NCBI RefSeq assembly: GCF_018279165.1
Contig: NZ_CP047289.1
Span: 558,001 to 622,000 of the forward strand
DNA length: 64,000 bases
Reading direction: 5' to 3'
Origin: Falsirhodobacter algicola
GTDB lineage: Bacteria; Pseudomonadota; Alphaproteobacteria; Rhodobacterales; Rhodobacteraceae
The notes beneath the pieces were generated by a model. It did not search any database, was not told where the DNA came from, and saw only the letters and a program-made list of their open reading frames with translations. The position numbers were made by a program, and so were the translations under genes. Shown here in pieces: positions 84-45,291 of this stretch. The number at the start of each line of letters is the position of its first letter. Positions within the stretch are counted from its first letter, which is position 1.

Positions 84-2278
<2,195 letters not shown>

Positions 2279-36080: not shown

Positions 36081-36409
36081 CCGAGGTTCCGACATGGCTG
36101 GCCGTGGTGGTCGCGGGGCTGCTGATCCTTGGGGCGGGGCTGACGCTGCTGGGCGCGGTCGGGATGCTGCGCTTTCCGCTCTTCTATCAGCGGCTGCACG
36201 CTCCGGCGCTTGGCAATAGCGGGGGGACGTTGGCGATCATCCTCGCCTCGATGCTGTTCTTTTCCACCACCGGGGACAGGATCGTCGTGCATGAGATCCT
36301 GATCGGCTTCTTCATCATGTGCACGACGCCGGTGACGCTGATGCTGCTGGGGCGGGCGGCGCTTTACCGCGACCGGGCGCGCAAATCGCCGCCCCCGACG
36401 GAGGAGTGA
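36077..36409 (+). CDS. mrpG: Na+/H+ antiporter subunit G
   Basis: A 110-residue subunit with three hydrophobic segments and the family stretch GAVGMLRFPLFYQRLHAPA. Last gene of the operon. Its final 46 bp overlap the 3' end of modC on the other strand, so the two operons converge without an intergenic terminator. Confidence 0.92.
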   Translation: MTEVPTWLAVVVAGLLILGAGLTLLGAVGMLRFPLFYQRLHAPALGNSGGTLAIILASMLFFSTTGDRIVVHEILIGFFIMCTTPVTLMLLGRAALYRDRARKSPPPTEE

Positions 36410-37446
36410 CCCTCCACCGCGGCGGCCTTCAGGATCGCGAAACACTCCACCCCCGGCCGGAGATCGAGCGCGGCGATGGACCGTGCGGTCACGCTGGCCA
36501 GCAGCGGCCCGGCTTTCGTCCGTAGCCCGACGAGCGCCGTCGCCCCGCCTTCGGGCAGGGTTTCGACCCGCGCGGGCAGGATGTTCAGCGCCGAGAGCCC
36601 CTCCGGCCTGCGGCGGGACAGCATGACATCCGTCGCCTGTATCCGCACCCGCAGATCCCGCCCGACCGGCGCATCGGTCACGAGCCAAAGCAGGCCTGCC
36701 GCCGTGGAAAGGCGGGTCAGCCCGTCCTCCTCCTTCGCCTCGATCCGGGCCTGCAAGAGCGCGCCAAGCTCCCCCGCGCCCAGAAGGGGGCCAGCCCCGG
36801 CATCGGCCAGCAGTTCGGCCGGGGTGCCGGCCCCGCGCACGCGGCCCCCCTCCAGCAAGATGACCCGGTCCGACAGGCGGGCGATTTCGGCGACGGAATG
36901 GCTGATATAAAGGATGGGCGGCCCCTCGCCGTCGCGCAGATGCTCCAAATAGGGAAGGATCTCCTGCCGGCGCGGCGGATCGAGAGCGGAAAGCGGCTCG
37001 TCCATGATCAGAAGCGCGGGATCGGACAGCAGCGCCCGCCCGATCGCCACGCGCTGCCGCTCCCCGCCCGAAAGCCGGGCCGGGCGGCGCGTCAGCAGCG
37101 GCCCGATCCCCAGCAGATCCGCGATCCGGCCAAGCGAGGACGGATCGCGATTGCCATAGAGCAGGTTCGCCCGCACCGTCATATGCGGGAACAGGCGCGC
37201 GTCCTGAAAGACATAGCCGATCTTGCGCCGATGCGGCGGCACCCATGTTCCTGGCCCGAACATGGCGCTTCCGTTCAGGTGGATATGGCCCGCCTTGGGG
37301 CGCAGCAGCCCAGCCACCGCCTGTGCCACGGTCGTCTTGCCCGCGCCGGAGGGGCCGAACAGCGTCGTCACCCGCGCCTCCGACGCGAAGGCGATGTCCA
37401 GATCGAACCGGCCCAGCCGGTGGCGCAGCGCAATGTCCAGCGTCAT
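36364..37446 (-). CDS. modC: molybdate ABC transporter ATPase
   Basis: A 360-residue ATPase with Walker A GPSGAGKTT, signature LSGGERQRVAIGRAL, Walker [14 protein letters not shown] and a C-terminal Mop/TOBE domain (about 290-350) that senses oxyanion. ATG 37446 overlaps the modB end by ATGA; the frame is open further upstream, but that part is modB in another frame. The last 15 codons overlap mrpG. Confidence 0.93.
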   Translation of the reverse strand: MTLDIALRHRLGRFDLDIAFASEARVTTLFGPSGAGKTTVAQAVAGLLRPKAGHIHLNGSAMFGPGTWVPPHRRKIGYVFQDARLFPHMTVRANLLYGNRDPSSLGRIADLLGIGPLLTRRPARLSGGERQRVAIGRALLSDPALLIMDEPLSALDPPRRQEILPYLEHLRDGEGPPILYISHSVAEIARLSDRVILLEGGRVRGAGTPAELLADAGAGPLLGAGELGALLQARIEAKEEDGLTRLSTAAGLLWLVTDAPVGRDLRVRIQATDVMLSRRRPEGLSALNILPARVETLPEGGATALVGLRTKAGPLLASVTARSIAALDLRPGVECFAILKAAAVEGHSSVGGGDLRARSR

Positions 37447-38132
37447 CCGCGCATCCTGCGCGCGATGCCCCGCGCGACGTATTCCGACAGCAGGATTGCC
37501 CCCATCGACACCGCGATCGATACGAGGACGAGCCGCATCGCCCGATCCTCGGACCCCGGCACCTGCAACAGCGCATAGATGGCCGAGGGTAGGGTCTGCG
37601 TCTGGCCGGGAATGTTGGACACGAAGGTGATGGTCGCGCCGAACTCCCCCATCGCCTTGGCAAAGCCGAGGACGGCCCCCGCCACGATGCCGGGTAGGAT
37701 CAGCGGCAGCGTCACCGTCAGGAACACCCGAAGGCGCGGGGCCCCGAGCGTCGCCGCCGCCGCCTCCAGCCCTGGATCGACCGCCTCCACCGACAGGCGG
37801 ATCGCGCGGACCAGAAGCGGAAAGGCCATGACGGCCGCCGCCAGCGCCGCCCCCGTCCATTGAAAGGCAAAGACGATGCCGAGATCCGCCAGCCACGCCC
37901 CGACCGCGCCGCGCCGTCCGAAAGTGAGCAGCAGGAGGTATCCGGTCACGACCGGGGGCAGGATCAGCGGCAGATGCACCAGCCCGTTCAAAAGCTGCCG
38001 CCCCCAGAACCGCCCCCGCGCCAGCGCGACGGCGATGCCCACCGCGAAGGGCAGGCTGCACAGCGTGGCCACGAGCGACACCTTCAGCGACAGCGCAACC
38101 GCCTGCCATTCCTGAGGCGTCAGCGCATCCAC
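37443..38132 (-). CDS. modB: molybdate ABC transporter permease
   Basis: A 229-residue permease with about five hydrophobic segments, the ModB/CysU-type loop EAAAATLGAPRLRVFLTVTLP, and an N terminus typical of ModB. It starts 1 bp after the modA stop and ends overlapping modC. Confidence 0.92.
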   Translation of the reverse strand: MDALTPQEWQAVALSLKVSLVATLCSLPFAVGIAVALARGRFWGRQLLNGLVHLPLILPPVVTGYLLLLTFGRRGAVGAWLADLGIVFAFQWTGAALAAAVMAFPLLVRAIRLSVEAVDPGLEAAAATLGAPRLRVFLTVTLPLILPGIVAGAVLGFAKAMGEFGATITFVSNIPGQTQTLPSAIYALLQVPGSEDRAMRLVLVSIAVSMGAILLSEYVARGIARRMRG

Positions 38133-38133
38133 C

Positions 38134-38871
38134 TCAGTTCAGAACCCGGAAACCCTGCGCGGCAAAGATGCGCGCGGCCTCGTCGCCCGACAGGAAGGCG
38201 AGGAAGGCTGCGGCTTCAAGCCCCTCGCTGCCCTTCACCTGCGCGGCGGGGTAGGTGATGGGATCGTGGCTGTCATCGGGGAAGGAAGCGACCACGCTCA
38301 CCCGCGGTTCGGCCACGGCGTCGGAGGCATAGACGATGCCGAACGGCGCCTCGCCCGTCGCGACCAGCGCAAGCGCGGCCCGCACGTTGTCGGCCTGCGC
38401 GACATGCGGCCGAAGCGTGCCCCACAGGCCAAGATGGGTCAGCGCCTCCTTGCCATAGACACCGGCGGGAACGGAATCGACCAGCGCCATGGCCAGCCGC
38501 TCATCCCCGAGGGCCTGCGGCAGATCGGTGACCGGCAGCTGCTTCGTGCCCTGCGGCGCGACGAGCACGAGGCTGTTGCCCAAAAGGTCATGGCGGGTTC
38601 CGTCCTCGATCGCGCCCGCATCCGCCGCCGCATCCATCCAGTCCGTAGAGGCGGAGATGAACACATCCGCTGGCGCGCCCTGAATGATCTGCTGCGCCAG
38701 CACCGACGAGCCGGCATAAGAGATGTTAGCCGTTTCCCCCGTCTCGTCCTGCCATTCGCCCGCGATCTGATCGAGCGCGGTGCGCAGGCTGGCGGCGGCA
38801 AAGACCGTCACGGGCGCGGCCTGCAGCGGCGCGGCGGTGAGGGCGAGGATCAGGGCGGCGGAGCGGAGCAT
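38134..38871 (-). CDS. modA: molybdate-binding periplasmic protein
   Basis: A 245-residue binding protein with a signal peptide cleaved near PLQA-APV and the ModA motif VFAAASLRTALDQI. The chain SYAGSSVLAQQIIQGAPAD continues the ligand-binding lobe. First gene of modABC; only 48 bp separate it from opgH upstream, and I see no clear ModE-type operator there. Confidence 0.92.
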   Translation of the reverse strand: MLRSAALILALTAAPLQAAPVTVFAAASLRTALDQIAGEWQDETGETANISYAGSSVLAQQIIQGAPADVFISASTDWMDAAADAGAIEDGTRHDLLGNSLVLVAPQGTKQLPVTDLPQALGDERLAMALVDSVPAGVYGKEALTHLGLWGTLRPHVAQADNVRAALALVATGEAPFGIVYASDAVAEPRVSVVASFPDDSHDPITYPAAQVKGSEGLEAAAFLAFLSGDEAARIFAAQGFRVLN

Positions 38872-38919
38872 GCGTTCTTCCTTCTTTGCCGTCCGATGCT
38901 ATGCCGCCACCCCCGGGCG

Positions 38920-40698
38920 TCAAGCCGGGACAGCCACCGCCTCGGCCTCGGTCAGATCACGTTCGCCTTCCCAGCGGGCGAGGATGCGGTCCATCGTCAG
39001 CATGACGGGATGGGGATGACGCTCCACCGGCACGCGGAAGAGGCTGGTCATGCTGCGGCGCGAGGTCCAGCAGATGACGAGCGGCGCGATGATCATCGGA
39101 AGGGCGATGGGCAGCAGCCACGGCACCAGCCCCGGGAACAGGACATAGGTGGCCGACAGCACCACGAGACCCGTCACCACGATCCACCAACTGGCCGCCC
39201 AGCTTTCGCCGAGCGACAGCGAGCCGTCGCCCCGGTTGTTCGTCGGCCAGCCGCTATCGGCCCCGAAGATCACCTGAAGCACGGACCGCGTCTGGAACAT
39301 CATCAGGATCGGCGCGGTGATGGAGGAGAAGATCAGCTCCACCAGCGTCGATTGCAGCACGAGGCCGGCGCCGCCGAAATCGCGCGCGCGGCGCGACAGG
39401 ATAGCATCCGCCGCCACCAGCAGCTTCGGCAGGAACAAGAGCCCGAAGATGCCGACGGCAAGCCCGATCGCCTTCCACGTCTCGTCCGAGGGGAAGACCG
39501 GGAAGGGCCAGTCCGGCACGGGGAAGTAGTTGATCGGCGGCGTGAACCACGGCGCGGTGATGGAGGAGATAAGGAAGCCCAGCCAGAACAGCGGAGAGAT
39601 GTAGCTGAGGATCCCTTGGATGAACACGAAGCGGTTCCAGCTGCGAAGGCCCGGCGCGTTGACGATCTTGGCATGCTGAAGGTTGCCCTGACACCAGCGG
39701 CGATCGCGTTTGGCGTGATCGACGATGTTTTCGGGGCCTTCCTCGAAGCTGCCTTCGAGATCGTCATCGAGGCGCACGATCCACCCGGCGCGGGCCAGAA
39801 GCGCGGCCTCCACATAGTCGTGGCTCATGACATGGCCGCCGAAGGGCGGGCGGCCGGTCAGTTCCGGCAGGCCGCAACTCTCGGCGAAGGCGCGGCTGCG
39901 CACGATGGCGTTGTGGCCCCAGAAGGGGCCGGTCTCGCCCTGCATCATCGCAAGACCGCGCGCGAAGATGGGGGAATGGAAGCTGGCCGAATACTGCATG
40001 GCGCGGCCGAACCGTGCCTCGGCGCGCGTCACCTTCGGCAGGGTTTGCAGCAGACCAAGCCGCGGCTCGGCCTCCATCCGGCGGGCCATCTCCACGATGG
40101 TGTCACCGGCCATCAGGCTGTCGGCGTCGAGGATCAGCGCGAAATCATAGGCCGCGCCCGAGCGCTGGAAGAAATCTTCGATATTGCCGGCCTTGCGCCC
40201 GGCATTGCTGGTGCGGCGGCGGTAGAACATCCGCCCCTCGCCGTCGCAATCGTCCATCAGATGCTCGAACCAGATGCGCTCCTGCTCGGCGATGTCGTCC
40301 TTGCGGGTGTCGGACAGGATGGCGAAATGGAAATGCTCCGAATGGCCAGTCGCCTTGAGCGAGGCATCCATCGCGGCAACACGCGCAAAGACCGCCACCG
40401 GATCTTCGTTGTACACGGGAACGAGGATCGCGGTTTTGGTGCTGAGGCCGGTGAAGGCGGGCAGGGACGGCGCCTCGGCGCGGGACATCAGGCCCATGAT
40501 CGCCTGCGCCGCCCCCCATGCCAGCCAGAAGGTGGAGATCAGGATCAGGACCGAGCGCACGATGTCCATGACATCGAGCCCGTCGGCCATACCGAATTGA
40601 AGGAAGAGCATGAACGCGCCGATGGCGGCCACACCGCTGAACAGAAGCGCGAAGACGCGGGCCGCGGCTGCATGCCCGCGTGTGTCAGATTGCGCCAT
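38920..40698 (-). CDS. opgH: glucans biosynthesis glucosyltransferase OpgH/MdoH
   Basis: A 592-residue inner-membrane family-2 glycosyltransferase that polymerises UDP-glucose into osmoregulated periplasmic glucan. It has N-terminal membrane helices at about 12-70, the catalytic ALILDADSLMAGDT motif, HDYVEAALLARAG, and RRWCQGN (Q-x-x-R-W type), then several C-terminal helices. E. coli OpgH is about 847 residues, with a longer N-terminal cytoplasmic region. The ATG has only a weak ribosome site and lies in the same frame as the preceding small ORF, separated by a TGA and one codon. Confidence 0.93.
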   Translation of the reverse strand: MAQSDTRGHAAAARVFALLFSGVAAIGAFMLFLQFGMADGLDVMDIVRSVLILISTFWLAWGAAQAIMGLMSRAEAPSLPAFTGLSTKTAILVPVYNEDPVAVFARVAAMDASLKATGHSEHFHFAILSDTRKDDIAEQERIWFEHLMDDCDGEGRMFYRRRTSNAGRKAGNIEDFFQRSGAAYDFALILDADSLMAGDTIVEMARRMEAEPRLGLLQTLPKVTRAEARFGRAMQYSASFHSPIFARGLAMMQGETGPFWGHNAIVRSRAFAESCGLPELTGRPPFGGHVMSHDYVEAALLARAGWIVRLDDDLEGSFEEGPENIVDHAKRDRRWCQGNLQHAKIVNAPGLRSWNRFVFIQGILSYISPLFWLGFLISSITAPWFTPPINYFPVPDWPFPVFPSDETWKAIGLAVGIFGLLFLPKLLVAADAILSRRARDFGGAGLVLQSTLVELIFSSITAPILMMFQTRSVLQVIFGADSGWPTNNRGDGSLSLGESWAASWWIVVTGLVVLSATYVLFPGLVPWLLPIALPMIIAPLVICWTSRRSMTSLFRVPVERHPHPVMLTMDRILARWEGERDLTEAEAVAVPA

Positions 40699-40701
40699 GG
40701 A

Positions 40702-40857
40702 TCAGGGATCCGTCCGGGGCAGGCGAAGGCTGAACAGACGTTTCCAGATGCTGTCCTGCGTCGATTGCAGAACCTGCTTGGGCATCGCCAGCGGGGCGTC
40801 GGGAAGGGTGCCGCGCGGATTGGACGGGGCGGCGTCGTGCGTATCTTGCTGTGCCAT
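40702..40857 (-). CDS. 51-codon ORF between opgG and opgH (OpgI-like position)
   Basis: MAQQDTHDAAPSN starts 2 bp after the opgG stop. The chain is soluble, with a basic end (IWKRLFSLRLPRTDP) before TGA 40704-40702. Next come one Ser codon and the opgH ATG, all in one frame. The Rhodobacter sphaeroides opgGIH operon has an extra gene, opgI, at this position, but I cannot confirm homology. It could be a separate gene or a detached N-terminal part of OpgH, whose E. coli counterpart has a comparable cytoplasmic W/R-rich segment. Confidence 0.6.
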   Translation of the reverse strand: MAQQDTHDAAPSNPRGTLPDAPLAMPKQVLQSTQDSIWKRLFSLRLPRTDP

Positions 40858-40859
40858 GA

Positions 40860-42494
40860 TCAGTTGACCCATTGATATAGCCATGTCTCAGACAACTTGC
40901 GTCCGTAACCGGCGATATGCGCACCGAGTTCCACGATGCTGTCCGAGGTTGTCCGCACGTCCATGATGATCCGCCATATGTCGGTTCCGGGGATCCGCAC
41001 AAGGCTGGAATGTTCGACCGTGCCGTTCTGGATGTTGATCACCGGGTTCAACTGCGCATCGACCGGCAGATTGGCGATGGTGCCGCCCCGGAAGTCTATG
41101 ACGAACTTGCGGAAGTTCTGACCGTTATCGAGGCCGGAGACGCCGCCCGCGCCCGCCCGCGTTTCGAAGACATAGGCCAAAGGCTCGCCCGCATCGGGCA
41201 TCAGATCGCCCCAGCGGATGATGTAGGAATATTCCCGCTCGGTCCCCTTTTCGAAGCTGCCATCGGGCACCCAGAAGGCGACGATGTTGTCGTTCACCTC
41301 GGAATCGGAGGGGATTTCCACGAGCCGGATCGCGCCCTTGCCCCATTGACCGACGGGCTCGACGCGGGCCGAGGGGCGCCGTTCGTAGCGGGCCTCGAGG
41401 TCTTGGTAATTCTCGAACTCGCGGTCGCGCTGATACAGGCCGAAGGCGACGGGCGACTCCTCGGCGAAATACGACCCGCTCAACCGCGACGGGTTGTTCA
41501 GCGGGCGCCACAGACGTTCCCCCGTGGCGCGTTCGATCCGAAGACCGTCGGAATCGTGCACATTGGGGCGGAAATCGTCGAACTCGGAATGGTTCTTCTC
41601 GGCGAAGAGGAACATCGATGTGAGGGGCGCCACGCCCAGTTGCGCCACGGTTTCGCGCGCGAAGATGCGGGCCGTGACGCTGACCACGGTCTGCGAGCCG
41701 GGGGTGATGACGAAGCGGTACGCCCCCGTGACCGAAGGGCTGTCGAGCGCGGCATAGAGATGCACCGTCAGCGAATTGGCCGAAGGACGCTCCAGATAGA
41801 AGGCGGAGAAGCGGGGGAACTCCTCTTGCGTGGTGGTGGCGGTATTGAGCGCCAACCCGCGGGCCGAAAGGCCATAGCTGTTGCCGCGCCCCAATGCGCG
41901 GAAATAGGACGCGCCGAGGAAGACCACCAGTTCGTCGTAGATGTCGGGGCGGTTCATCGGCGTGGACAGCCGGAAGCCCGCGACGCCCGGAAGCTCCAGA
42001 TGCGGTTTGAAGCGGTCGGAGAGGTTGTTGTAATATTCGAAATCGTCGGTGGAGAACTGCATCTCCCGCGCGTGACCGTCCGCAACCTCGAACATCTGCA
42101 CGGGATTGCTGTAGAGCCAACCCATGTGGAAGGCCGCCACGCGGAACAGGCTGGCCGGGTCGTCGGACCAGCGGGCGCGATCGGCGCGGAAGTTGATGGC
42201 GCGGTAATCGTCGTATTGCAGATCGCCGAGGATGCCGGTCGGTTCGGGCGGCGCCTTGTAGGGCGTGGTCGCGGCCTGACGCATCTGTTCGGTCAGCACA
42301 TCGAAATCGAAGGCCATGTCCTGCGGGGCGGGGGCCGCTTCGGGCTGCGGCGGGGGCGGCGCCTCCACCTGATCCGGGGCGGGGGCCGGGGCATCTTGGG
42401 CGTGCGCGGGGAGGGAGACCAGCGCCGCACCGGCGGCCCCACCCATCAGGAGGGACCTGCGGGACAGGCGTGGGGCGGTCTTGCTCGATATCAT
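40860..42494 (-). CDS. opgG: periplasmic glucan biosynthesis protein OpgG/MdoG
   Basis: A 544-residue periplasmic protein needed to build branched osmoregulated glucan. The N terminus has a twin-arginine signal (SRRSLLMGGAAGAALVSLP, cleaved near AHA-QD) and a proline/alanine-rich linker. The beta-rich OpgG fold follows, beginning about FDVLTEQMRQ and including GRGNSYGLSARGLALNTA. ATG 42494 is chosen; ATG 42509 is possible. It is divergent from pstS. Confidence 0.92.
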   Translation of the reverse strand: MISSKTAPRLSRRSLLMGGAAGAALVSLPAHAQDAPAPAPDQVEAPPPPQPEAAPAPQDMAFDFDVLTEQMRQAATTPYKAPPEPTGILGDLQYDDYRAINFRADRARWSDDPASLFRVAAFHMGWLYSNPVQMFEVADGHAREMQFSTDDFEYYNNLSDRFKPHLELPGVAGFRLSTPMNRPDIYDELVVFLGASYFRALGRGNSYGLSARGLALNTATTTQEEFPRFSAFYLERPSANSLTVHLYAALDSPSVTGAYRFVITPGSQTVVSVTARIFARETVAQLGVAPLTSMFLFAEKNHSEFDDFRPNVHDSDGLRIERATGERLWRPLNNPSRLSGSYFAEESPVAFGLYQRDREFENYQDLEARYERRPSARVEPVGQWGKGAIRLVEIPSDSEVNDNIVAFWVPDGSFEKGTEREYSYIIRWGDLMPDAGEPLAYVFETRAGAGGVSGLDNGQNFRKFVIDFRGGTIANLPVDAQLNPVINIQNGTVEHSSLVRIPGTDIWRIIMDVRTTSDSIVELGAHIAGYGRKLSETWLYQWVN

Positions 42495-42623
42495 GGCTAC
42501 CCTGCTCATGTGACGTCGTGCGGCCCGAAGCCGCGATTTCGTCTGATATATTGGCCGGTCGCAATCGGTTGCAAGCAAATCAGGTGGAAAGCCGCCTATG
42601 GACGGCATCATTCCGCGGGCCGT

Positions 42624-42663
42624 GTGTCATAAAACCGTCATGGATATGTCACATACAGGTCGC
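42624..42663 (+). promoter_or_regulatory. PHO box upstream of pstS
   Basis: Four 7-bp units at an 11-bp pitch: GTGTCAT (42624), CCGTCAT (42635), ATGTCAC (42646) and the weaker AGGTCGC (42657), separated by AT-rich 4-mers AAAA, GGAT, ATAC. This fits tandem PhoB half-sites of the CTGTCAT type. It lies just upstream of a -10 box and replaces a conventional -35, as expected for PhoB activation during phosphate limitation. Confidence 0.85.
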
Positions 42664-42671
42664 AGGCCGGG

Positions 42672-42677
42672 GATAAT
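42672..42677 (+). promoter_or_regulatory. -10 element of the pstS promoter
   Basis: GATAAT lies 8 bp after the last PHO unit and about 50 bp before the pstS ATG. No TTGACA-like -35 precedes it at 17 bp; that position falls inside the third PHO unit. Confidence 0.55.
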
Positions 42678-42726
42678 CAGCCCCATGACCGGGGCAGAAC
42701 CCCAGGTAGAATCCAAGGAGAGACCG

Positions 42727-43755
42727 ATGTCGTTTCTGAAAGTCACCGTGTCCATGATGGCCATCGCCGCTGCCGGCGTCACCGCTGCTTCGGCGCAAAG
42801 CCGCGATCAGGTGCAAGTCGCCGGGTCGTCCACGGTGCTGCCCTATGCCACGATCGTCGCCGAAGCCTTCGGCGAGAACTTCGATTTCCCGACGCCGGTC
42901 GTGCAGTCGGGTGGCTCGGGCGCCGGTCTGGCCCAGTTCTGCCAAGGCGTCGGTGAGAACACCGTGGATATCGCGAACTCCTCGCGCCTGATCCGCGACA
43001 GCGAACTGCAGACCTGCCACGACAACGGCGTCAACGACATCATGTATGTGCGTTTCGGCTATGACGGGATCGTCTTCGCTTCGGACGTGAACGGCGCTTC
43101 CTTCGCCTTCACCCCGGCCGACTGGTTCAAGGCGCTGGCCGCTCAGGTCGTCGTGGACGGCAAGCTCGTTGCCAACCCCTACACCAACTGGAACGAAGTG
43201 AACCCGGATCTGCCGGATCAGCCGATCCTGACCTTTATTCCGGGCACCAAGCACGGCACGCGTGAAGTCTTCGAAGAGAAAGTCCTTGCGGCTGGCTGCG
43301 AAGAATCGGGCGCGCTGGAAGAAATGACGGCCATGTCCGACGAAGACACCGCCGAAGCCGCCTGCACCGCCGTGCGCACCGACGGCCGTTCGGTCGATAT
43401 CGACGGTGATTACACCGAGACGCTGGCCCGCATCCAGTCGGATAGCAACGGCATCGGCGTGTTCGGTCTGTCCTTCTACGAGAACAACATGAACACGCTT
43501 CAGGTCGCGACGATGTCCGGCGTGACGCCGTCGACCGAAACGATCGCCTCGGGTGAATACCCGGTGTCGCGTCCGCTGCAGTTCTATGTGAAGGCCGCGC
43601 ATCTCGGTGTGATCCCGGGCCTGAAGGAATATGTCGAGTTCTTCGTCTCGGACGACATGGCCGGCCCGAACGGCCCGCTGGCGGCTTATGGCCTCGTGTC
43701 CGATCCGGAACTGGCCGACACGCAAGCGGCTGTCGCTGCTGAAGAAACGATGTAA
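42727..43755 (+). CDS. pstS: phosphate-binding periplasmic protein
   Basis: A 342-residue phosphate-binding protein with a signal peptide (cleavage near ASA-QS) and the phosphate-binding start VAGSSTVLPYA, GGSGAGLAQFCQG, and ANSSRLIR. The ATG has AAGGAG about 6 nt upstream. Controlled by the PHO box above. Codon use looks more uniform than in neighbours, in keeping with high expression. A stem-loop follows the stop. Confidence 0.94.
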   Translation: MSFLKVTVSMMAIAAAGVTAASAQSRDQVQVAGSSTVLPYATIVAEAFGENFDFPTPVVQSGGSGAGLAQFCQGVGENTVDIANSSRLIRDSELQTCHDNGVNDIMYVRFGYDGIVFASDVNGASFAFTPADWFKALAAQVVVDGKLVANPYTNWNEVNPDLPDQPILTFIPGTKHGTREVFEEKVLAAGCEESGALEEMTAMSDEDTAEAACTAVRTDGRSVDIDGDYTETLARIQSDSNGIGVFGLSFYENNMNTLQVATMSGVTPSTETIASGEYPVSRPLQFYVKAAHLGVIPGLKEYVEFFVSDDMAGPNGPLAAYGLVSDPELADTQAAVAAEETM

Positions 43756-43781
43756 GAACCGGGACAGGTTCAAGGTTCACA

Positions 43782-43812
43782 GCCCGGCCGAACCCTCGGC
43801 CGGGCCTCTTTT
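43782..43812 (+). terminator. intercistronic terminator/attenuator between pstS and pstC
   Basis: GCCCGGCCGA and TCGGCCGGGC form a perfect 10-bp stem with loop ACCC, followed by CTCTTTTC. Strong GC stem plus T-run indicates partial termination, giving more PstS than membrane components. Confidence 0.7.
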
Positions 43813-43827
43813 CAGACGAGAGTCCCC

Positions 43828-45291
43828 ATGCCCGTGCTCTGGATACTGCTGACGGTTCTGGCCATCGCCCTCGCCGCCTTCGCGCTGGCGCGGCGCAATG
43901 CGCTGGCCAGTGCCAAAGACGATCCCCGCATCCTGCATTCGCTTCCGTCCTACTATGGTTGGTACGCGTTCATTCTTGCGGCGCTGCCAGCCGTTTTCGT
44001 GATGCTGGTCTGGCTGATCGTGCAGCCGATGATCGTCGAGAACCGCGTGAATGCCGCCCTCGATGCCGCGCCCCAAGAACTGTCGATGGTGGAGCGCGAG
44101 GGCGCCCGGCGCGACAGTGGCACCGTGGCGCAGGCGATCCGAAGCGCCGTATCCTCGGGTGCGATGACGCTGCGGCAGATCGACGGTTTCGCGGCCGATC
44201 CGCAGGCGCTGGCCCCGGCGCTGCGCGATGCGGGTGTGCCGATCCTGACCAATATCACCCAGCCCGTCTATGACGGGGCACAGGCGCTTCTGGCCGCCTC
44301 GGCCAGCCTCAACATCGCGATGGCCGTCGTTGCGATCGCCGTCGCGCTGATCGGCGCGCTGATCGCCGTGCGGCGTACGCGGCCCGATTTCCGCGCGCGC
44401 AACGCGGTGGAGCGGGTGACGCTGGGCATTCTGATCGGGGCCTCGGTCATCGCGATCCTGACGACCATCGCCATCGTCTGCTCGTTGATTTTCGAGACCT
44501 ACAATTTCTTCCAACAATATCCGTGGACGGCCTTCTTCTTCGGAACCACATGGGCCCCCGTGTTCCAAGGCCAGAGCGAGCTGGGCATCCTGCCGCTTTT
44601 GTGGGGCACGCTCTATATCAGCCTGATCGCGCTGGCGGTGGCCGTGCCAATCGGCCTTTTCGCGGCGATCTATCTGTCGGAATACGCCTCCAACCGGGTG
44701 CGTTCGGTGGCCAAGCCCCTGATCGAGATCCTCGCCGGCATCCCGACCATCGTCTATGGTCTGTTCGCGCTGGTGACGGTCGGTCCGATGCTGCGCGACT
44801 ATTTCGCCCAGCCGCTGGGGCTCGGCTCCACCGGATCGTCCGTGGCGACGGCGGGTCTGGTCATGGGGATCATGATCATCCCCTTCGTCTCCTCGCTGTC
44901 CGATGACATCATCAACGCCGTTCCGCAAAGCCTGCGCGACGGCTCCCTCGGCCTTGGTGCTACGCAATCGGAAACGATCCGTCAGGTGGTCTTGCCGGCG
45001 GCGCTGCCGGGCATCGTCGGGGCCGTCCTGCTGGCCGCCTCGCGCGCGATCGGTGAGACGATGATCGTGGTGCTGGGGGCGGGGGCCGCCGCGCGGATCG
45101 ACGTGAACCCCTTCGAGGCGATGACGACGATCACGGTGAAGATCGTCTCGCAGTTGACCGGCGATACCGACTTCAACTCGCCCGAGACGCTGGTCGCCTT
45201 CGCCCTTGGCCTGACGCTGTTCGTCGTGACGCTGTGCCTCAACATCCTCGCGCTGATCATCGTGCGCAAATACCGGGAGCAATACGAATGA
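43828..45291 (+). CDS. pstC: phosphate ABC transporter permease PstC
   Basis: A 487-residue permease, longer than the E. coli protein (about 319), because of an N-terminal extension of roughly 180 residues with its own membrane helices and a periplasmic-looking loop. The core has the loop GSLGLGATQSETIRQVVLPAALP. The extended form is common in alphaproteobacteria. It overlaps pstA by ATGA. Confidence 0.92.
   Translation: MPVLWILLTVLAIALAAFALARRNALASAKDDPRILHSLPSYYGWYAFILAALPAVFVMLVWLIVQPMIVENRVNAALDAAPQELSMVEREGARRDSGTVAQAIRSAVSSGAMTLRQIDGFAADPQALAPALRDAGVPILTNITQPVYDGAQALLAASASLNIAMAVVAIAVALIGALIAVRRTRPDFRARNAVERVTLGILIGASVIAILTTIAIVCSLIFETYNFFQQYPWTAFFFGTTWAPVFQGQSELGILPLLWGTLYISLIALAVAVPIGLFAAIYLSEYASNRVRSVAKPLIEILAGIPTIVYGLFALVTVGPMLRDYFAQPLGLGSTGSSVATAGLVMGIMIIPFVSSLSDDIINAVPQSLRDGSLGLGATQSETIRQVVLPAALPGIVGAVLLAASRAIGETMIVVLGAGAAARIDVNPFEAMTTITVKIVSQLTGDTDFNSPETLVAFALGLTLFVVTLCLNILALIIVRKYREQYE

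Follow-up and report, generated by a model that had tools for sequence, protein, structure and literature searches.

A small gene between opgG and opgH of Falsirhodobacter algicola: OpgI as a probable detached terminal motif of OpgH

The opgGIH locus and its relatives

In Rhodobacter sphaeroides, the operon opgGIH-opgC carries a small gene, opgI, between opgG and opgH. Cogez et al. are said to have found in 2002 that opgG, opgI and opgH are all needed for backbone synthesis in this bacterium. The portions of the literature that we searched offered no explanation for the role of the gene named opgI. According to PMC10514313, opgI and opgH of R. sphaeroides together complement an opgH deletion of Escherichia coli. 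The present study deals with a small gene in the identical place, between opgG and opgH, in Falsirhodobacter algicola (Rhodobacteraceae). The window, i.e., the whole stretch of DNA analyzed, comprises 64,000 nucleotides (NCBI RefSeq assembly GCF_018279165.1, contig NZ_CP047289.1, positions 558,001 to 622,000), and the coordinates below are counted from its first letter. Comparison with related loci leads us to consider it likely that OpgI is the product of an independent conserved gene and represents an OpgH terminal motif that is detached and independent of placement, docking on the enzyme non-covalently.

All three genes lie on the minus strand. opgG (40860..42494), a member of the MdoG family (Pfam PF04349, E value 2.5e-182), ends with the TGA at 40862-40860; at the OpgG N-terminus, TAT_signal gave a weak match under the cut-off (E 0.092). 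Two bases, TC, separate this stop from the ATG at 40857, which opens opgI (40702..40857; assigned from its sequence and the clade comparison), a gene of 51 codons ending with the TGA at 40704-40702. A single spacer codon, TCC (40701-40699), forms with this stop the same-frame join (40699..40704) to opgH (38920..40698), which starts with the ATG at 40698 and runs for 592 codons to a stop ending at 38920. It encodes a membrane glucosyltransferase of the short form, without a terminal motif (NCBIfam NF003959, MdoH, E 1.2e-302; AlphaFold model). If the TGA is read as a residue, the product has 51 + 1 + 1 + 592 = 645 residues. On rechecking of the coordinates, the preliminary description of this DNA proved exact in this layout, and the computed length agrees with the through-TGA product of about 645 residues that it gave. 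Alternative in-frame ATGs upstream of the opgI start, at 40884 and 40872, would yield longer forms overlapping opgG. The 51-residue OpgI matched no family of Pfam or NCBIfam up to E 1.

Flanked by opgG and opgH and encoded on their strand, the small open reading frame (ORF) has the position of opgI. We compared it over 137 loci of one OpgH clade (57 and 80 from two sets, with some genomes present twice, e.g., L003 and L076). In 136 of them, opgH is preceded by a distinct small ORF that carries the motif P-x-A-P-[LM]-x-M-P-x-Q-x-L or a variant; L144, the sole exception, has no motif ORF and just 223 bases available before the OpgH match. The strict pattern failed in 10 of the 137, of which eight carry variants in the right place, one (L146) was found in a later search and one is L144. 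Cereibacter ovatus (L077) has the variant APCIMPKQ at the corresponding place, and the OpgI core or a variant is present in Rhodobacter amnigenus and Rhodobacter aestuarii (L080, L081); homology with Rhodobacter/Cereibacter opgI is judged from these relatives and not from the R. sphaeroides protein. By sequence comparison, the small ORF is the opgI gene as in Rhodobacter opgGIH, an independent and conserved small gene. The first option of the preliminary description, an opgI-type gene of such operons, is thus borne out by homologous small ORFs in the operons of relatives.

A profile of 61 OpgI proteins (A3) was searched through 295 whole genomes of the family. Matches of E 2.3e-5 or better occurred in 52 genomes, the next best elsewhere being 2.3e-4, a recurrence beyond chance. 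All 52 lie directly 5′ of opgH, as compared by eye from the coordinates, and the 52 genomes are the ones with an OpgH scoring >500 bits, an agreement that is partly by construction, as some of them gave rows to A3. The match in the window's genome reached E 3.2e-13, the window's own protein being a row of A3.

The OpgI core and the two ends of OpgH

The visible constraint looks confined to a 15-residue core of OpgI (residues 16-30, GTLPDAPLAMPKQVL; 40768..40812, minus strand), identified by codon comparison within the genus and by profile searches as the motif common to OpgI and OpgH termini. Among seven members of the genus, the pooled pairwise ratio of nonsynonymous to synonymous proportions (pN/pS) was 0.17 in the 15 codons of the core and 0.89 elsewhere in opgI, figures that are rough because pS is about 0.6, near saturation, and alignment of the flanks is difficult.

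The core recurs at the N-terminus of OpgH outside the clade. A hidden Markov model (HMM) of the split OpgI proteins, run over the 4581 ORFs obtained by six-frame translation of 66 other loci, matched the N-termini of one-piece OpgH, e.g., in L161 (E 1.1e-5) and L183 (E 6.2e-5), together with two separate ORFs (L170, L058) and one OpgH C-terminus (L189); the best E value in the reversed-ORF control was 1.1. Comparison of profiles by hhalign gave P 4.3e-7 and a probability of 92.7% for OpgI against 18 N-termini of one-piece OpgH. These 18 had been chosen as motif-bearing, and the HMM and genome-wide searches are the less biased tests. Among the 295 genomes, 13 weaker A3 matches (E 2e-4 to 0.01) included eight N-termini of long OpgH frames; the other five comprised one separate ORF beside OpgH (G071), one match in G232, a genome for which no OpgH match is listed, and three strays. 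Neither Pfam nor NCBIfam has a family specific to the 61 OpgI proteins. The NCBIfam models, which are independent of our alignments, matched them five times, three times with MdoH models (best E 0.007), although one stray match to another family scored better (E 0.0036). Other Alphaproteobacteria, and family f156 from a different class, have one-piece OpgH with an N-terminal motif. These comparisons argue for homology between the OpgI core and the N-terminal segment of one-piece OpgH, more weakly so in the genome-wide sensitivity and NCBIfam tests.

The motif is also found at the opposite end of the enzyme. In family f161, all 14 loci fetched (L204-L217), one of which is the locus that first drew attention (L189), encode a short-form OpgH whose motif stands 5 to 47 residues before the C-terminus; in two of these proteins the motif has W as its final residue, and the pattern search found no motif in front of opgH at the f161 loci. 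Family f150 has the motif at the OpgH C-terminus in two loci and at the N-terminus in two. By hhalign, 16 C-termini matched OpgI with P 2.1e-4 (46%) and the N-terminal set with P 7.7e-6 (84%).

In trans, the motif resides on a protein of 51 residues here and of up to about 150 residues elsewhere, whose gene may precede or follow opgH. Stappia, Roseibium, Aurantimonas, Jiella and other Alphaproteobacteria (L158, L159, L254, L257) encode longer separate proteins in which it lies close to the C-terminus, and in L240 a separate protein downstream of opgH (850-1236, minus strand) has the motif at its very end. Longer OpgI-like proteins with an extra N-terminal part were noticed at L139, L142, L149, L146, L159, L254 and L257; Pfam gave no match for those of L139, L142 and L149.

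In one alternative, OpgI would perform a job independent of OpgH, and the motif would be a proline-rich tail without common origin that evolved on several occasions. The shortness of the motif, the match of the C-terminal set to OpgI at just P 2e-4 and 46%, and the weak sensitivity of the profile outside the clade would agree with it. However, the A3 matches up to E 0.01 in the 295 genomes lie at opgH, except for the three strays and the one genome without a listed OpgH match, and every placement found has the motif at or beside OpgH. We regard such convergence as doubtful, though it keeps some weight.

Translation across the opgI-opgH boundary

The boundaries of opgI were compared for 120 distinct proteins, 44 to 112 residues long, from the 127 loci that passed the strict pattern. 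The start of opgI lies at -4 relative to the opgG stop in 82 and at -1 in 20, where the choice of starts was biased toward those overlapping or abutting that stop. Relative to opgH, opgI is in frame in 50 cases and out of frame in 69, one case being left unassigned. The first start codon follows 3 nt after the opgI stop in 38 of the 50 in-frame cases, and the seven members of the genus all share both this frame and this spacing.

Within the end of opgI, 5′ of opgH, the window contains a Shine-Dalgarno-like GGACGGA (40709..40715, minus strand), placed by eye as the putative ribosome site. The duplex energy with the anti-Shine-Dalgarno sequence is -5.7; six congeners with the same spacing gave -3.2 to -7.1, and the mean of the 120 loci, which leans toward strong sites as the starts were picked partly by duplex score, is -5.4. 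The site is thus of the usual strength for the group and not weak, as had been thought earlier. The 3-nt spacing makes it plausible that translation of opgH is coupled or reinitiated. OpgI would be translated independently from its own start adjoining the opgG stop, and opgH would be initiated from the ribosome site inside the 3′ end of opgI. Since this end carries the site, the two genes are probably coupled.

It is conceivable that opgI serves as a leader or coupling ORF, of which the translation matters, delivering ribosomes to opgH, and the peptide does not. The starts overlapping or abutting the opgG stop, the short distance to the opgH start and the pN/pS of 0.89 outside the core would all suit a leader. 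In contrast, purifying selection acts on the core peptide (0.17), which also recurs inside OpgH at either end, where a leader role is impossible. A leader without a working peptide therefore appears unlikely.

The stop codons bear on the two remaining alternatives. The in-frame opgI genes end with TAA in 21, TGA in 20 and TAG in 9 cases, and the out-of-frame ones with TGA in 57, TAA in 6 and TAG in 6. Within the genus, six of the seven have TGA and one (L004) has TAG, and an in-frame relative (L083) carries a double stop, one directly after the other. Three stop types and a drifting frame speak strongly against both TGA recoding and a recent nonsense mutation. From the comparison of these junctions, the stop before opgH is an ordinary gene boundary, neither a break nor a recoding signal.

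Programmed readthrough of the TGA, or another recoding, joining OpgI to OpgH in a chain of 645 residues, was among the options of the preliminary description. The common frame with one sense codon between TGA and ATG would allow it, and the 3-nt in-frame spacing is frequent, but 21 of the 50 in-frame genes have TAA and 9 have TAG, 69 relatives are out of frame, L083 has its double stop, and opgH has its own start codon with a ribosome site of usual strength. As the TGA varies even within the genus, with TAG in a congener, we hold readthrough to be very improbable. A recent nonsense mutation splitting a one-piece opgH in this lineage is scarcely credible, for although one-piece OpgH with an N-terminal motif exists elsewhere, the split arrangement is common to the clade, including its members from Devosia, Martelella, Nitratireductor and Stappia, and 69 of 119 junctions are out of frame. 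The earlier suggestion of an originally longer opgH interrupted by a nonsense change therefore fails as a recent event, given three stops and all three relative frames, and retains its deep-time part, the likeness of the OpgI core to the N-terminus of one-piece OpgH. The sign that the preliminary description had named against its proposal, relatives having a plainly distinct and conserved small gene at differing frames and spacings, is what the comparison shows (69 out of frame vs 50 in frame).

OpgI as a proposed terminal motif of OpgH

By the topology of the E. coli enzyme, both termini of OpgH are expected to be cytoplasmic. We propose that the free OpgI core peptide would bind the cytoplasmic side of OpgH as a non-covalent subunit, and that this subunit may be needed for glucan backbone synthesis. 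The stop-bearing linker would be dispensable, so the covalent join could exist, be missing or shift to the opposite terminus. In its more general form, the proposal states that a motif of about 15 residues, P-x-x-x-P-x-x-M-P-x-Q-x-[LFW], could be a transferable docking/activating subunit of OpgH, acting in cis at the N-terminus, in cis at the C-terminus, or in trans as OpgI, with the E. coli-type enzymes either dispensing with it or relying on an unrecognized substitute. On this general form our judgment is evenly balanced.

Several observations weigh against OpgI being a detached terminus of OpgH. A motif of 15 residues is short enough to converge. At E ≤ 1, A3 found the motif in only six (G314, G368, G613, G524, G523, G515) of the 17 known bearers among 33 chosen genomes, and this low sensitivity implies that sequence similarity beyond the clade is weak. 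Many OpgH proteins, including that of E. coli, have no detectable motif, so that the family is able to function without it. In a pattern search of 48 cross-class loci, including E. coli and the very distant match L176, 15 had an N-terminal, 2 a C-terminal and 3 a separate motif, and 28 had none, although degenerate N-terminal forms were seen by eye in L179, L180 and L202. In a second survey of 29 partly overlapping loci, the motif was N-terminal in 12, separate in 4 and absent in 13, of which L243 and L251 look degenerate. Pattern matches in L175, L185, L190 and the second one in L200 (first survey), and in L239, L250, L255 and L261 (second survey), were set aside as chance. Fourteen genomes taken as motif-less gave no A3 match below E 0.014, an absence that is weak given the low sensitivity of the profile.

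The joined chain (645 residues, stop read as a residue, 54 rows) was modeled by AlphaFold with a predicted template modeling score (pTM) of 0.88 and a mean predicted local distance difference test (pLDDT) of 88.2. Ten-residue pLDDT means over OpgI and the junction were 41, 82, 93, 65, 51 and 44, i.e., a confident core and a disordered junction. OpgI folded alone gave 63, 76, 91, 72, 75 and 67 (pTM 0.26); with the core nearly as confident alone (91) as joined (93), the comparison does not separate a docked from a free peptide, which weakens the joined model as a sign of docking. The sole structural hint, a weak one, is residue 27, a strand or bridge residue in the joined model and absent as such in OpgI alone. 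Since OpgI has no other strand or bridge residue in the joined model, its partner should lie in OpgH. The fold of the OpgH model is similar to those of bacterial cellulose synthase and the cyclic glucan synthase; among solved structures searched by sequence, no relative was found at E 0.001.

Eight OpgH positions, five of them at 270-287, differ between motif-bearing (63 rows) and motif-lacking (24 rows) proteins but mostly mark the E. coli-type clade, and the co-occurrence test of OpgH residues and motif had four independent pairs on supported branches, too few for significance. A tree of 88 OpgH rows (quick method, midpoint root) included 11 of the 16 C-terminal rows, omitted L165, for which the filter found no ORF, and labeled L146 as having no motif despite its separate motif ORF. 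In this tree, the main split clade neighbors the N-terminal clade, the C-terminal clade lies elsewhere, and the separate forms L158 and L159 also fall outside. A first joint alignment (A1), in which the short rows appeared dispersed over OpgH, was dropped.

opgI as a kind of gene was already known; new are the confinement of constraint to the core and the sharing of the motif with both ends of OpgH. In the parts of the literature searched, PMC10514313, PMC11389396 and PMC4726272 included, OpgI was not described as a detached, movable OpgH terminus; Cogez et al. 2002, which lay outside that search, may note it. Regarding OpgI as a detached motif opens a direct test through the 15 residues and glucan synthesis. 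If true, it would provide a natural instance of a short motif that moves between N-terminus, C-terminus and free peptide within one enzyme family. Annotators should also be warned that the opgI/opgH arrangement is not a frameshifted or truncated opgH.

Around the operon, molybdate-transport-like ORFs, which we take to be modA/modB/modC-like, lie downstream (36364-38871), and divergent ORFs, presumably pstS/pstC-like, lie upstream (42598-45291). Between the pstS-like ORF and opgG, at about 42600-42660, TGTCAT-type repeats resemble a Pho box by eye and could also touch opgG expression. On the plus strand, an open frame of 869 codons (38266-40875) runs antisense across opgH and opgI and is probably a by-product of high G+C content. 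The whole genome has no match to the acyltransferase-3 family (PF01757, the opgC family) at E 0.001, whereas 10 of 14 control genomes have one; any glucan succinylation would thus need another enzyme.

Compared with known systems, the locus agrees with the R. sphaeroides operon in the small gene between opgG and opgH and in the order of these genes. By the ORF listing, it differs in that a modA-like ORF and not opgC follows opgH, opgC being a feature of the operon and not of opgI. With the one-piece OpgH of other Alphaproteobacteria and f156, it shares the core motif before the first membrane helix and the glucosyltransferase; there the motif is covalently attached, whereas here it sits on a separate protein. 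OpgH of f161 and f150 shares both motif and enzyme, with the motif at the opposite, C-terminal end. The E. coli OpgH (847 residues) belongs to the same enzyme family and also has an N-terminal region before its membrane helices, but no motif is detectable in either terminus. The preliminary description had likened OpgI to this region; by hhalign, the N-terminal region of E. coli-type OpgH (20 rows) matches OpgI with a probability of 0.2%, the longer separate OpgI with 0.3% and the C-terminal set with 3.1%, and the likeness is not upheld. A stretch of the form MPPxxRTxMxPxPW in E. coli-type OpgH has a faint by-eye likeness to the motif and was rejected, being unsupported by any profile comparison.

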